DNA from: Spiribacter vilamensis
GTDB taxonomy: Bacteria > Pseudomonadota > Gammaproteobacteria > Nitrococcales > Nitrococcaceae
Direction: 5' to 3'
Assembly (NCBI RefSeq): GCF_004217415.1
Contig: NZ_SHLI01000001.1
Coordinates: 1,054,001-1,118,000 of the forward strand
DNA: 64,000 bases
Below are positions 53,911-62,728 of the stretch, in pieces. The notes under the pieces are model-generated. The model made no database searches. It was not told the origin of the DNA and saw only the letters and a list, made by a program, of their open reading frames with translations. The translations under genes and the position numbers were made by a program. Each line of letters opens with the position of its first letter. The stretch's first letter is position 1.

Positions 53911-54036
53911 TGGAGCAATCGCGGCATCGGCGCGGGAATTTCGCCGGATGGCTTGGCATCAGGCCTTTCACACCCGCAGTATAAGGGTATAAGAAGAATC
54001 ACGATTGCAACCTGTCACTCAGGAGGAGAAAACGGC

Positions 54037-55974
<1,938 letters not shown>

Positions 55975-56434: not shown

Positions 56435-58189
56435 ATGGATCTCGCACTCACGACTTACCTGATTGTCGGCGCCACCTTCGTGCTCTACATCGGCATCGCG
56501 ATCTGGGCCAAGGCCGGCAGCACCGGCGAATTCTACGTGGCCGGCAAGGGGATCAACCCCATTGCCAACGGCATGGCAACGGCGGCGGACTGGATGTCGG
56601 CCGCATCTTTTATCAGTATGGCCGGCCTCATCGCCTTTCTCGGCTATGACGCATCGGTCTATCTCATGGGCTGGACCGGCGGCTACGTGCTGCTCGCACT
56701 CCTGCTCGCTCCCTATCTGCGCAAGTTCGGCAAGTTCACGGTTCCCGAGTTCATCGGCGATCGGTTCTACTCCAAACCGGCGCGGGTGATCGCCGTCGTC
56801 GCCCTGATCGTGGCCTCGCTGACCTATGTCATCGGTCAGATGAAGGGCATCGGCGTCGCCTTCTCGCGCTTCATGGAGACGAGCTACGAGGTGGGTCTCT
56901 TCACGGGAATGGCGATCGTCTTTTTCTACGCCGTGATCGGCGGCATGAAGGGCATCACCTATACCCAGATCGCCCAGTACTGCGTCATGATCTTCGCCTA
57001 TACCATCCCGGCGATCTTCATCTCCCTGGCGATTACGGGTAATCCGCTGCCGCAGCTGGGCCTCGGTGGCACCGTGGCCGATGGTCAGTCCCTGCTCAAC
57101 ACCCTCGACAACATCCTTGTTGATCTCGGGTTCTCGCAGTACACGATCATGAAGGGCACGACGATGAACATGTTCTTCCTGACCATGTCGCTGATGATCG
57201 GTACGGCCGGCCTGCCCCACGTCATCGTGCGCTTCTTCACGGTTCCACGGGTGCGTGACGCACGCCTGTCGGCGGGCTGGGCACTGGTGTTCATCGCCAT
57301 TCTCTACACCACCGCCCCGGCCGTGGGTGCCATGTCGTTCTACAACCTGATCAATACCGTCCAGACGGGCGAGGTCGGGGCGGAGGAAGGCAACCTGGCC
57401 TACGAGAATGTCCCCGGCTGGTTCTCGCGCTGGGAGGAAACCGGGCTTCTTGGCTACGAAGACAAGAACGACGATGGCCGCATCCAGTACTACAACGACG
57501 ACAACGCGGAGTTTGAATCCACGGCGCAATCCTATGGCTGGGATGGCAACGAGCTGACGGTCGACCGCGACATCATGGTCATGGCCAACCCCGAGATCGC
57601 GGGGCTGCCCAACTGGGTGATTGCGCTGACGGTGGCCGGTGGTCTTGCCGCCGCCCTGTCGACGGCGGCAGGGCTGCTCATGGCCATCTCCTCGGCGATC
57701 TCGCACGACATGATCAAGGGCATCATCAACCCACGGATCAGCGAGAAGGGCGAGTTGCTGTCGGCACGCGTGGCAATGGGGGTCGCCATCCTCGTGGCCG
57801 GTTACCTGGGCCTGAATCCACCGGGATTCGCGGCGCAGGTGGTCGCCCTGGCGTTCGGACTGGCAGCGTCCTCGCTGTTCCCGGTATTGATGCTGGGGAT
57901 CTTCAGCCGTCGGATGAATAGCGCCGGTGCCATCGCCGGTATGCTCTCGGGTCTCAGCTTCACGCTGATCTACGTGTTCGTCTTCAAGGGCTGGTTCTTC
58001 ATCCCCGGGACGAACATGCTGCCGGATACCCCCGAGAACTGGTTGCTCGGCATCGGCCCGCAGTCCATCGGTGCAGTCGGCGCGATCATCAACGCCGTCG
58101 TCGCGACCCTGGTATCCCGGGCAACGGCACCGCCGCCGAAGGAAATCCAGGACCTGGTGGAAAGCATCCGGGTGCCCCGCGCCGCCTGA
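56435..58189 (+). CDS. sodium/solute symporter of the VC_2705 group (acetate permease-like)
   Basis: A 584-residue SSS-family transporter with about 13 helices. GEFYVAGKGINPIANGMATA is the SSS signature start and RFFTVPRVRDARLSAGWALV is conserved with ActP. A hydrophilic loop of about 90 residues carries the EF-hand-like DKNDDGRIQYYN (343-354). With acs upstream the likely substrate is acetate or another short organic acid. It is not the ActP-YjcH pair of E. coli, because the partner is DUF4212 instead of YjcH. Confidence 0.92.
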   Translation: MDLALTTYLIVGATFVLYIGIAIWAKAGSTGEFYVAGKGINPIANGMATAADWMSAASFISMAGLIAFLGYDASVYLMGWTGGYVLLALLLAPYLRKFGKFTVPEFIGDRFYSKPARVIAVVALIVASLTYVIGQMKGIGVAFSRFMETSYEVGLFTGMAIVFFYAVIGGMKGITYTQIAQYCVMIFAYTIPAIFISLAITGNPLPQLGLGGTVADGQSLLNTLDNILVDLGFSQYTIMKGTTMNMFFLTMSLMIGTAGLPHVIVRFFTVPRVRDARLSAGWALVFIAILYTTAPAVGAMSFYNLINTVQTGEVGAEEGNLAYENVPGWFSRWEETGLLGYEDKNDDGRIQYYNDDNAEFESTAQSYGWDGNELTVDRDIMVMANPEIAGLPNWVIALTVAGGLAAALSTAAGLLMAISSAISHDMIKGIINPRISEKGELLSARVAMGVAILVAGYLGLNPPGFAAQVVALAFGLAASSLFPVLMLGIFSRRMNSAGAIAGMLSGLSFTLIYVFVFKGWFFIPGTNMLPDTPENWLLGIGPQSIGAVGAIINAVVATLVSRATAPPPKEIQDLVESIRVPRAA

Positions 58190-58244: not shown

Positions 58245-58275
58245 AACCCCGGTGGCCCCGCACCGGGGTTTTCTT
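58245..58275 (+). terminator. rho-independent terminator
   Basis: AACCCCGGTG and CACCGGGGTT pair as 10 bp around a 6-base loop, followed by TTCTTA. It ends the acs-symporter transcript. It touches the convergent minus-strand gene, whose stop is at 58274-58276. Confidence 0.75.
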
Positions 58276-60160
58276 ATAGCTGGAAGCGGACTTCGAGTTT
58301 CTTGTGCAGTCGCCGCGCCTCGCGGAAGGCCTCCTTGAGGATGCGACGGTCCATCGGGTTCACGCCCTCGGGATCGAGCCGGTTGCCCATGCGATCGCCA
58401 CTGGTCGACTGGTATTGATGCTCCCGCATCCGCAGCAGCTGTACGAAGGCAAAGGAGCGCTCGAAAGCGCCGGCGTCTTCCGGGGTCAGGACATCCGCTT
58501 TGGCGAGCTCCCGGAAACGCGTCTGCGTATGCGCATCGGCGATACCCGCCTGCAGCGCCAGCACACGCGCCGCATCGACGAACGGCGTCAGACCGCGGAC
58601 CTTGAGGTCGAGTCGGTGGACACCGTCATCATCCCGATCGGTCACGAAGTCGCGAAAGACCCCGAGCGGGGGTTTGATCGCCATACAGTTGCCCGCCAGC
58701 GTATGCAGGAATACCGAGTTGCCGGACGCGAGCTCAACGACCCGGCGCTGCAGCGCCTCGCCGGTAACGAGATCGCCCCAGACCGGACGGAAATCGAAGT
58801 AGATGGTCGAATGAAGGACATTCTCCGGCGTGGCACTGCCCACCAGCCGCCGGAACGTCGCCTCCCACTCCTCGAAGCTCAGGCACAGGCCGGGATTGCT
58901 GGCCATGACATTGCCCGTGCAGAGCGCGAAGCCGCAGGCGTCGAGGACCTCGTTGATGCGCCGGGCCAGGGGCAGGAGACGCTCGCGGACCGCCTCCGGC
59001 GTCTCCTCGCCCGGGTCGAAGAGGATGCCGTTATCCTGGTCCGTGACGCGGGTCTGTTCCCGGCGTCCCTCACTGCCGAAGGCAATCCACGTAAAGGGCA
59101 CACCGGGGTCGCCGCGCTCGGCGAGCACCAGCTCGATGGCACGGGTGACGGTGCGGTCATTGAGCAGGGTAATGATCCGTGTGATCTGCTCGACGCCGGC
59201 CCCGTGCGCCATCATGCTGTCGATTAGTGCGCCCACCTGGCCGCGGGCGAGCACCAGCGCATCGACGTCCTCGGCACCGGTAATCGAGCGGGTGAGATGG
59301 ACCAGGTTGATCCGCTGCAGGGCGAAAATATCGCGCTCGGAGATAACGCCGGCAAGGCGTCCGCCCTGATCGGTGACGATCATGTGCCGGATATGGTGCC
59401 GGGCCATCTCCACCACCGCCTCGAAGGCATAGGTCTTCACATCGAGGGTGATCGGCTCGCGGGTCATCACCGCCGCGAGCGACTCGTCGAGGTGGCTGCC
59501 ATCGGCCACCACCGAGCGCAGGTCATGGAGCGTAAAGATCCCCCGCGGGCGCTCCTCGAGGTCGGTGACCAGTACGCTGCCGACCTTGCGGGCGTGCATG
59601 GCCGCCACCGCGTCACGCACCGAGGTCTGCGCCTCGCAGGTGAGTGGCCGGGCGTTCATCAACTCCCCGAGGGGCGTATCCATCGTGGTATCACCGCCGA
59701 GATTGCCGGCGGCGCGGTGCTGGATGTCCTGCTGGACCTGATCGAGCAGGCCACTCACCCCGCGCAGACAGTAGTCGCGGAACATCGGGCTCTCGCTGAT
59801 CAAATGCTCGAACGCCGTCCGCGGGATGCGCAGGCACTGGGTCGGCGTCCCCGCCCGGTAGACGGTCCGCGTGGCTCGCTGACCGATCATGGCCGCCATC
59901 GGGAAGTTGTCGCCGGCACCCAGCTCGAAGCGCTCGCCTCCCGGGCGCTCGGCCCGGACCTGCCCCTCCACGATCAGGTAGAAATACGCCGCCGGTTCGG
60001 CCGTGGGCTCGAGGATGACCGTGCCGGCGGTGTAGTCGCGGACCTCGCAATGCTCCCGGAAATGCCGCTGCAGCGCGCGCGGCAGCCGGTCGAAGGGGGA
60101 ATGGGAATCGAGGAAAGCGCGGATCGCCGAGGCATCCGCGCTCGCGGTGGCATCCGTCAT
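58274..60160 (-). CDS. cNMP-binding/CBS/DUF294 nucleotidyltransferase-like protein
   Basis: A 628-residue cytoplasmic regulator. A cyclic-nucleotide-type domain (about 22-130) is followed by two CBS domains (about 165-285), then DUF294 with the GlnD-like motif AFGSEGRREQ (360-369) and Asp374/Asp376 in VTDQDNGIL, then the DUF294 C-terminal domain. The GS and DxD residues needed for a nucleotidyltransferase are intact. The ATG at 60160 has GGGAG upstream. In Pseudomonas and relatives such proteins lie beside the acetate permease. Substrate is unknown. Confidence 0.87.
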   Translation of the reverse strand: MTDATASADASAIRAFLDSHSPFDRLPRALQRHFREHCEVRDYTAGTVILEPTAEPAAYFYLIVEGQVRAERPGGERFELGAGDNFPMAAMIGQRATRTVYRAGTPTQCLRIPRTAFEHLISESPMFRDYCLRGVSGLLDQVQQDIQHRAAGNLGGDTTMDTPLGELMNARPLTCEAQTSVRDAVAAMHARKVGSVLVTDLEERPRGIFTLHDLRSVVADGSHLDESLAAVMTREPITLDVKTYAFEAVVEMARHHIRHMIVTDQGGRLAGVISERDIFALQRINLVHLTRSITGAEDVDALVLARGQVGALIDSMMAHGAGVEQITRIITLLNDRTVTRAIELVLAERGDPGVPFTWIAFGSEGRREQTRVTDQDNGILFDPGEETPEAVRERLLPLARRINEVLDACGFALCTGNVMASNPGLCLSFEEWEATFRRLVGSATPENVLHSTIYFDFRPVWGDLVTGEALQRRVVELASGNSVFLHTLAGNCMAIKPPLGVFRDFVTDRDDDGVHRLDLKVRGLTPFVDAARVLALQAGIADAHTQTRFRELAKADVLTPEDAGAFERSFAFVQLLRMREHQYQSTSGDRMGNRLDPEGVNPMDRRILKEAFREARRLHKKLEVRFQL

Positions 60161-60203
60161 GGGATTCTCCCGGGGCATTCGTTGACTTTGATGCCAGCGT
60201 ACA

Positions 60204-60234
60204 TGGACAAACGGCCGAGGGAGTAGCCTATACT
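60204..60234 (+). promoter_or_regulatory. probable sigma-70 promoter for the receiver gene
   Basis: TATACT at 60229-60234 is a near-consensus -10 element, with GGACAA (or TGGACA) 18-19 bases upstream. The transcript would start near 60241 and the GGAGGAGG ribosome site is at 60247-60254. The spacing is slightly long. Confidence 0.45.
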
Positions 60235-60263
60235 GGCAGAAAAAGAGGAGGAGGCAGCATCCA

Positions 60264-60656
60264 GTGGATGCTGAATGGCTTATGGTTAAAACGATTCTAA
60301 TTGTCGACCATGAATCCAATCTGACCAGTGCGCTCGGGTTCCTGCTCGAGCAGTCGGGGTTTCGCGTCGTACTCGCGAGTACCTGCGCCCAGGCGGAAGC
60401 CGCCATGAACGAGGCCTGTCCCGACATGGCCATGGTCAACACCACCCTGCCCGACCGCAGTGGTTATGACCTCTGCCAGCGTCTGCTCGCCGTTGCCGGT
60501 GCTGCCGGTCTACCCATCCTGATGCTGACTTCGCACAGCCTGCAGGTCGAGCGCGAGAAGGCGTTCTCGATGGGCGCGACCGACTTTATCGTCAAGCCCT
60601 TCGATCCGGCGACGATCCTCGGACGGGTGAGGGCCCTGGCCAGCGGAGCCGCCTGA
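60264..60656 (+). CDS. receiver-only response regulator lacking the phospho-acceptor Asp
   Basis: A 130-residue CheY-fold protein with no output domain. The phospho-acceptor position is Asn59 in MAMVNTTLPDRSGYDLC, and the acidic pair is Asp15-His16 (ILIVDHE), so the usual Asp-Asp pair is lost. Thr89 and Lys111 (IVKPF) remain. It therefore cannot be phosphorylated in the normal way. The GTG at 60264 sits 9 bases after GGAGGAGG; an ATG at 60282 is also possible. It ends 2 bases before the next gene, so they form one operon. Confidence 0.85.
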   Translation: MDAEWLMVKTILIVDHESNLTSALGFLLEQSGFRVVLASTCAQAEAAMNEACPDMAMVNTTLPDRSGYDLCQRLLAVAGAAGLPILMLTSHSLQVEREKAFSMGATDFIVKPFDPATILGRVRALASGAA

Positions 60657-60658
60657 GG

Positions 60659-62728
60659 GTGAGGGCGTTCCGGCTACCCCGGCTGCGCAAACGCCTCTGG
60701 GGATCGGTTGCCGTGATCGCCGCTCCGGCGGCGGTGGCGGCCCCGATGCTGAGCAGTGTCCACCCAGTGCTGGGAGGCGGCGCGGTGGGTCTCGCGTTTG
60801 CCGGCGTCGGGCTGGTGATCGACCGTCGCATCGGCCGACCGCTGAGCGCGACCGAACGCGGTGCGGGCATTATCGCCGCATCCAACCCGGGGCATCAGCT
60901 CGAGCTGAACGCTCGCCACTGGCTCGGCCGCCTGCCCGAAACCATCGAGCAGCTCGGGGGGACCGTCGCCCGCAGCCGGCGCGAGATGGAGGAAGCGGCG
61001 TCGGCCTGGACCACCCGCATCGAGGCTCGAAAGGCCCGGCTGGAAACGATCCTGCGCGAGATCCGTGAAGGGGTCGTGGTCTGCGGTACCGACGGCCGCA
61101 TCAATCTCTACAACCGCACCGCGCGTGTCCTGCTCGACGGCGAACCGGCGCTGGGGCTCGGCCGCAACATCAACGAGGTGCTCAATGACGGGCCACTGCG
61201 GCACGCGCTCGGCCTGATCGAGCCAGCGGCGAACGCCACTGGCAGTGCCGACACCGAACTGGTCTGTGCGACGACCAGCGGCGAGCGACTGTTGCGATGC
61301 CGGGTCGCGCGTTTGATCACCGACGACCCCGGCACCGACGGCTTCGTCATGACCCTGACCGATGTCTCGCGCCAGACCCGGGCGGCCCTGCGCCGGGAAC
61401 AGAGCCTCCGCGCGGCGGTCGAGTCACTCCGCGATCCGCTGACCAGCCTCTACACGGTCAGTGAAAGCCTGCGGCTCGCCCAGCAGGCCGATCTCGACGC
61501 CGATGCCGACCGGTTTGGTCGCATGGTCCGGGAGGAGACCCACCGCCTGACCGAGGCCTTCGCGCACCTCTCGGATGAAACCACATCGATGGTGACGGAT
61601 AACTGGCGACTCGAGGATCTGCACCTCGGCAGTCTCATCGCCGGCATCAAGAAAAACCGCCAGTCAACGGGCATGCCGCGGATCCAGTGCGGCGCGGATG
61701 TCTGGGTGTCTGCCGAGCCCTACCTGCTCAGCCAGGTGATCGAGGCGCTGCTGATCCGTCTGGCCGGCGCGCTGGGCGTCTCGGCCGTCGCCATCACCGG
61801 ACGGGAGCAGGGCAGCCTCGTCTATCTCGACATCAACTGGTCGGGCGATGTGATCGCCCCGGATCAGCTCGATGAATGGCTGGATGCCGGGCTGGATGAC
61901 GTCGGTGGCACCGTCTCCCTGCGCGAGGTGCTGCAGCGCCACGACACCACGGCGTGGAGCCAGGCGGATCTCTCCCGCCCGGGTCGGGCCGTGTTGCGGC
62001 TGCCGCTCCCGGGGGCACCGGCGAAAACCGAGAGCCCGAGCATCATCGCCCCTCGCCCCGAGTTCTATGACTTTGCCGCGGACGAGACCGATCCGGTCCT
62101 TGCCCTGGGCGATCAGGCGGACCGTCGACTGACCGAACTGGATTACGTCGTATTCGACTGCGAAACCACCGGCCTGGCGCCGGGTCAGGGTGACGAGATC
62201 GTCTCCATCGGTGCCGTGCGCATCCACGAGGGGCGCGTCATGCACGGCGAGACGTTCGAGTTGCTGGCGAACCCGGAGCGCTCGATTCCCGCGCTCGCCA
62301 CGAGCATCCACGGCATTCGCGACGAGGATGTCGCCGATGCCCCCCCGGTCGAAGAGGCGATCCGCCGTTTCCACGCCTTCGCCGGCGATGCCGTGCTGGT
62401 GGGATTCAATATCGCCTTCGACATGCGCTTTCTGCGGCTCAAGCAGCGTCGCTGCGGTGTACGTTTCGACAATCCCACGCTCGACGCCCTGCTGTTATCG
62501 ATCCTGCTCCACGACCACACCGGCGAGCATACGCTCGAGGGCGTGGCGCGGCGGCTGGGTGTGGGCGTTGGCGGTCGTCACACCGCCCTGGGCGACTCCC
62601 TCACCACCGCCGAGATCCTGATCCAGCTGTTCGGACTGTTACCCGATGCCGGGATTACACGCCTCAGCGAGGCCGTCAGCGCGCAGGAGAAAATGGTGGA
62701 ATTTCGCCGCCAGCAGCGCGCGTTCTAG
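60659..62728 (+). CDS. PAS/degenerate histidine-kinase-like protein fused to a DEDDh exonuclease
   Basis: A 689-residue protein with a GTG start. Two hydrophobic segments near residues 15-55, then a PAS-like domain (about 125-235; ILREIREGVVVCGTDGRI). A helical region where kinase His would be reads ESLRDPLTSL, with Glu255 in place of His. A weak ATPase-like part (about 355-450) lacks the glycine motifs. The C-terminal 3'-5' exonuclease (from about 492) is intact: Asp500, Glu502, Asp588, His641, Asp646. It resembles DnaQ-type exonucleases but is not DnaQ. Likely membrane-linked sensor with nuclease output. Confidence 0.85.
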   Translation: MRAFRLPRLRKRLWGSVAVIAAPAAVAAPMLSSVHPVLGGGAVGLAFAGVGLVIDRRIGRPLSATERGAGIIAASNPGHQLELNARHWLGRLPETIEQLGGTVARSRREMEEAASAWTTRIEARKARLETILREIREGVVVCGTDGRINLYNRTARVLLDGEPALGLGRNINEVLNDGPLRHALGLIEPAANATGSADTELVCATTSGERLLRCRVARLITDDPGTDGFVMTLTDVSRQTRAALRREQSLRAAVESLRDPLTSLYTVSESLRLAQQADLDADADRFGRMVREETHRLTEAFAHLSDETTSMVTDNWRLEDLHLGSLIAGIKKNRQSTGMPRIQCGADVWVSAEPYLLSQVIEALLIRLAGALGVSAVAITGREQGSLVYLDINWSGDVIAPDQLDEWLDAGLDDVGGTVSLREVLQRHDTTAWSQADLSRPGRAVLRLPLPGAPAKTESPSIIAPRPEFYDFAADETDPVLALGDQADRRLTELDYVVFDCETTGLAPGQGDEIVSIGAVRIHEGRVMHGETFELLANPERSIPALATSIHGIRDEDVADAPPVEEAIRRFHAFAGDAVLVGFNIAFDMRFLRLKQRRCGVRFDNPTLDALLLSILLHDHTGEHTLEGVARRLGVGVGGRHTALGDSLTTAEILIQLFGLLPDAGITRLSEAVSAQEKMVEFRRQQRAF

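Follow-up and report, generated by a model that had tools for sequence, protein, structure and literature searches.

A single-domain receiver (REC) and a predicted membrane-anchored PAS-pseudokinase-exonuclease, encoded side by side in Spiribacter vilamensis, are probably parts of a signalling chain that runs from a histidine kinase to the receiver, from the receiver to a docking surface on the pseudokinase, and from there to the exonuclease, in a manner resembling DivK-DivL; in the clade of this organism the chain would have a kinase-free, phosphate-independent form. In most relatives, (i) an adjacent SLC5-transporter histidine kinase would phosphorylate the receiver, (ii) the phosphorylated receiver would dock on the His-less DHp of the pseudokinase in the membrane-anchored exonuclease, and (iii) docking would alter nuclease activity. 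In a clade of four Spiribacter species, the receiver most likely serves instead as a constitutive exonuclease partner that does not depend on phosphate. The pair lies in a window of 64,000 nucleotides (the whole stretch of DNA that was analysed) from a 2.08 Mb genome of a salt-loving bacterium that groups with Spiribacter.

Domain architecture of the receiver and the exonuclease protein

The features of the pair and its neighbours are listed in Table 1. A first-pass annotation of this DNA had described an Asn in place of the receiver phospho-Asp, a Glu255 where the kinase His is expected together with a lack of ATP-binding glycines, a complete set of DEDDh residues, and a spacing of 2 bases between the genes. 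These are borne out by the receiver alignment, by the alignment with NtrY-type kinases and the lack of a HATPase_c match, by the presence of D500, E502, D588, H641 and D646, and by a receiver stop that ends at 60656 with the exonuclease gene beginning at 60659.

Table 1. Features of the receiver-exonuclease locus and its neighbours (window coordinates).
Feature	Position	Strand	Basis
acs, acetyl-CoA synthetase	53953..55974	+	cluster comparison
actP-like cation/acetate symporter (presumed name)	56435..58189	+	similarity across cluster
Divergent neighbour: cNMP-binding + CBS + DUF294 + DUF294_C nucleotidyltransferase-like protein	58274..60160	-	Pfam
Single-domain receiver REC, 124 aa	60282..60656	+	Pfam Response_reg, homologue starts
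His10 replacing second acidic-pocket Asp (Mg2+ ligand position)	60309..60311	+	altered in nearly all Spiribacter
Asn53 from ATG (Asn59 from GTG, earlier numbering) at phospho-Asp position	60438..60440	+	receiver alignment
Membrane-anchored PAS-pseudokinase-DEDDh exonuclease, 689 aa	60659..62728	+	profiles, hydropathy, model
Two N-terminal hydrophobic helices, predicted membrane hairpin	60680..60826	+	hydropathy; AlphaFold2 helices 8-31, 36-74
PAS domain, residues 134-240	61058..61378	+	Pfam PAS_4/PAS
Pseudo-DHp helical hairpin, residues 237-313	61367..61597	+	AlphaFold2 helices, fold matches to DHp-CA kinases
Glu255 at phospho-His position	61421..61423	+	homologue alignment
Degenerate CA (ATPase-like) domain, residues 319-452	61613..62014	+	fold match, no HATPase_c match
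DEDDh 3'-5' exonuclease domain, residues 497-654	62147..62620	+	RNase_T profile, fold, catalytic residues

The receiver fold is identified by a Pfam Response_reg match above the cut-off (E 7.1e-21). The open reading frame extends from a GTG alternative start (60264-60656); however, the ATG at 60282 is the more likely start, as homologues begin there. The phospho-acceptor Asp and the acidic pair, present in most relatives, are absent from the window receiver, so that Asn53 and His10 alter the pocket at two positions; Thr83 and Lys105 remain.

The exonuclease protein begins with hydrophobic segments (approximately residues 13-35 and 36-55 by hydropathy) that were not part of the first-pass annotation. 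The PAS domain that follows is matched slightly under the Pfam PAS_4/PAS cut-off in the window protein (E ~1e-4) and over it in homologues. In the predicted structure, the kinase-like part consists of a DHp hairpin and a CA fold without the phospho-His or ATP motifs. A Pfam profile search finds no HATPase_c match (ATP-binding N/G boxes) in the protein even at an E of 1, while the modelled CA domain superposes on the ATPase domain of PrrB (Z ~13, rmsd 2.8 over 128 residues). The AlphaFold2 model of the full 689 residues is confident (mean pLDDT 86), with the kinase WalK as its best Foldseek match; the pseudokinase modelled in isolation (pLDDT 88) matches DHp-CA kinases (Foldseek E 1e-11), with DivL among them. 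The exonuclease domain is recognized by the Pfam RNase_T profile (E 1.8e-31) and aligns to the fold of PolC/DnaQ-type DEDDh 3'-5' exonucleases at Z 20-24, with each of their five catalytic residues present. Unlike these enzymes, the window protein is predicted to be anchored in the membrane and is fused to a PAS-pseudokinase.

Conservation of the two altered phospho-sites

Homologues are present in 17 of 23 genomes of the family, 43 of 54 of the order and 51 of 398 sampled from the phylum. Among approximately 149 distinct homologues, none has His in the column of Glu255, which is occupied by E in 97, R in 21, D in 12, Q in 7 and other residues in the rest. NtrY-type true kinases in the same profile alignment do carry His in this column; thus, it is the correct phospho-His position. 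The exonuclease residues (DEDHD) are all kept in 143 of the ~149. By contrast, the phospho-acceptor Asp is normal in 87 of the 94 receivers aligned. Asn occurs at this position in only four Spiribacter species (G000, G009, G012 and G021), and three other receivers without Asp (L140, L153 and L097) have E, G or A. Judged from these alignments, the two defects are different in kind: the loss of His is a trait of the family, whereas the loss of Asp is local.

Individual members of the family depart from this pattern. One homologue (L057:4914-6986) has DGIPD in place of DEDHD while its pseudokinase and receiver are still there, so some family members may be inactive as nucleases. In a sister species (G010, L075:5632-8069), an apparent frameshift splits the exonuclease gene into a pair of overlapping frames, one for residues 1-419 and one for 394-689, and the receiver is intact. 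Two genomes (G423:C47:25716-26384 and G803:C62:10200-10871) encode a second, more divergent pseudokinase-exonuclease paralogue.

The SLC5 histidine kinase and the gene neighbourhood

The commonest gene order, noted in gamma- and alphaproteobacteria, is DUF294 - REC - pseudokinase-exonuclease - SLC5 histidine kinase, and the SLC5 proteins that adjoin the pair in relatives carry HisKA and HATPase_c domains. With Asp usual in relatives and an intact SLC5 kinase beside most loci, the ancestral system looks phosphorylation-dependent. The same two observations count against the proposal of the first-pass annotation that the receiver and pseudokinase are by design two broken phospho-relay partners, and against its wider reading of a switch that is independent of phosphorylation throughout the family, with a receiver that senses something other than phosphate. 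The latter would account for the absence of the true His across the family and for the conservation of the Asn receiver in four species; it is quite unlikely given the 87 of 94 receivers with Asp and the usual neighbour with HisKA and HATPase domains.

The adjacent SLC5 kinase is also the apparent source of the pseudokinase. When the pseudokinase profile is run on four genomes, this kinase is the best match after the exonuclease proteins (E of 2e-18, 7e-16, 3e-13 and 5e-13), with other kinases far behind, and the DHp motifs correspond position by position (HELRTPLTSIRAFxEIL versus ESLRAPLANLRAAAESL). As the neighbouring kinase is the closest and the motifs correspond, the pseudokinase seems to have arisen by duplication of the DHp-CA of that kinase and to have been kept as a surface for receiver docking. 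In some Halorhodospira-like genomes (L029:3450-4490, L031:3462-4502 and L092:8868-9941), the exonuclease-adjacent kinase is without the SLC5 part, approximately 350 aa in length and apparently soluble.

The DUF294 protein is near the pair in many relatives. In the window, its longest frame (58274-60445) overlaps the receiver gene on the opposite strand, and a downstream ATG suggests that the true start is near 60160. The acetate context noted in the first-pass annotation is real, as acs and actP are in the same cluster, the actP name being assigned partly by similarity across the cluster. A scan of the acs cluster for sigma-54 promoters found no consistent site.

Kinase loss and the Asn receiver in Spiribacter

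The exonuclease-adjacent type of kinase is missing from all Spiribacter species, and D10 of the receiver is replaced in nearly all. An SLC5 kinase is, however, present in 10 of 10 Asp-bearing Spiribacter species; where the contig shows it (L198-L206), the interval from gluQ to acs contains a CbrA/CbrB-like SLC5 kinase and an NtrC-type (sigma-54) regulator, immediately upstream of acs. In the genomes of the four Asn species, gluQ and acs are directly adjacent, and this kinase and regulator are found neither there nor genome-wide; likewise, searches for an SLC5 histidine kinase gave no match in the window's genome or its three closest relatives, with matches in other relatives. The Asn species form a fully supported monophyletic group of four, whose sister group comprises two Asp species. 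Based on these sequence comparisons, the Asn arose later, in four species from which the nearby kinase/regulator pair has also been lost. The change of Asp to Asn and the loss of the acs-linked pair map to the same single branch; thus, their concordance within Spiribacter counts as n=1.

Across the wider family, all 68 loci with an adjacent kinase have an intact receiver pocket (scored at D/E9, D10, D53 and K105), whereas the pocket is broken at 15 of the 38 loci that have none (Fisher 2e-8, with no correction for phylogeny). On the tree, the broken pocket arose at least three times: in Spiribacter, in one other Ectothiorhodospiraceae genome, and in a Rhodospirillales pair. A fixed rule by which receivers without a kinase have no Asp is rejected, as 23 intact receivers are without an adjacent kinase and SLC5-type kinases are encoded elsewhere in the genomes that have the remaining Asp-less receivers (L140, L153 and L097).

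The Asn receiver keeps its reading frame and operon position, and its dN/dS within the Asn clade (0.04-0.12) is close to that of the exonuclease and lower than in most comparisons between Asp species. Thus, a receiver without phosphorylation chemistry is still maintained by selection, and a phosphorylation-independent role is likely in this clade, which is the part of the first-pass proposal that stands. Decay of the Asn receiver into a relic, with the exonuclease alone still of importance, would fit the loss of SLC5 kinases and the alteration of two pocket residues; this is quite improbable, however, for a gene whose dN/dS is no higher than among Asp species and whose frame and operon position are kept. 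The main role of the pseudokinase may instead be that of a phosphatase or phosphate sink acting on the phosphorylated receiver, with the exonuclease controlled by a ligand of its own PAS domain. DHp domains can dephosphorylate receivers, the PAS domain is conserved, and at some loci no receiver is detected beside the exonuclease protein; this explanation is nonetheless unlikely, as it leaves unaccounted for the strong purifying selection on a non-phosphorylatable receiver beside the exonuclease. With the SLC5 kinases and the phospho-acceptor gone and both genes under purifying selection, the receiver of this clade most likely persists as a constitutive partner of the exonuclease.

Covariation between receiver and pseudokinase

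The positions known to set specificity between histidine kinases and response regulators follow the numbering of RR468 for the receiver and that of HK853 with an offset of -5 for the pseudokinase. Receiver positions 13, 14, 17 and 21 and pseudokinase positions 262, 263, 266, 267 and 270 have the top mean covariation, ranking 1 of 388 slides over 121 pairs and, when both sides are slid, 50 of 42,680 over the same number of pairs. A slightly different set of positions, tried first, came 2nd among the 388 slides; later runs, with more sequences, used the canonical set. Unbiased inter-protein covariation was discarded, as clade markers prevailed among its highest-ranking pairs and only the pre-set specificity positions were usable. 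Most of the signal comes from a single coordinated change in Spiribacter (receiver I14/S17 to L/A, pseudokinase A266 to T); thus, the covariation, being mostly Spiribacter versus the rest, is supportive of docking and not proof.

A clade-driven signal of this kind would also suit a receiver and exonuclease that are merely co-transcribed, in which the receiver has another target and the pseudokinase is a dimerization scaffold. Such an arrangement is very unlikely for a pseudokinase that is closest to the neighbouring kinase, has a highly conserved DHp surface, and is linked to the receiver over the long term.

Comparison with known systems

DivL, a kinase that has no His, senses DivK~P by means of its DHp (PMC4211667). 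The window pair is similar to DivK-DivL of Caulobacter in that the DHp surface of a His-less PAS kinase would be the reader of a single-domain receiver (PMC4211667), and in the window protein the His is substituted and the DHp retained, as in DivL. In DivL, however, the H-region and the N, G1, F and G2 boxes are present except for the His, and DivL regulates another kinase (PMC4211667); in the window protein, the ATP site is degenerate and the pseudokinase is fused to a nuclease.

The CrbS/CrbR (= MxtR/ErdR) system shares an SLC5 kinase, an acs/actP regulon and a putative exonuclease, PP_0353 (PMC9927547). PP_0353 of P. putida is a putative exonuclease of the RNase_T family that is in an operon with PP_0354, is controlled by MxtR/ErdR, and when deleted impairs growth on pyruvate (PMC9927547). 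In that system, however, the control described is transcriptional, and neither a neighbouring receiver nor a fusion to a pseudokinase is reported (PMC9927547). A link of the window pair to acetate is suggested by the acs/actP cluster and by analogy with MxtR/ErdR-controlled PP_0353. CbrA/CbrB of Pseudomonas, an SLC5-type kinase with a sigma-54 NtrC-type regulator (PMC13022988), is like the pair that adjoins acs in Asp-bearing Spiribacter; no exonuclease partner is described for it, and such a pair is missing in the window's clade. An exonuclease-pseudokinase fusion was not found in the literature searched, although absence there is not proof. The single domains are ordinary; their arrangement is unusual, widespread and, as far as the literature was searched, undescribed.

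Biological significance

The outputs of two-component systems are mostly transcriptional. If the proposed chain is correct, a nuclease switched by a receiver via a pseudokinase would couple the sensing of nutrient transporters directly to RNA or DNA decay, and would be a candidate mechanism with which the still unexplained exonuclease of the MxtR/ErdR regulon could be compared. More tentatively, the family may be a widespread, undescribed branch of signalling in which transporter-coupled kinases control a membrane-bound DEDDh exonuclease by way of a receiver and of a pseudokinase that originated as a copy of the kinase, with some lineages free of phosphorylation yet still under receiver control. 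The Asn clade of Spiribacter, in which the kinases are lost, the Asp is replaced and the receiver is conserved, is a natural test of receiver function without phosphate.
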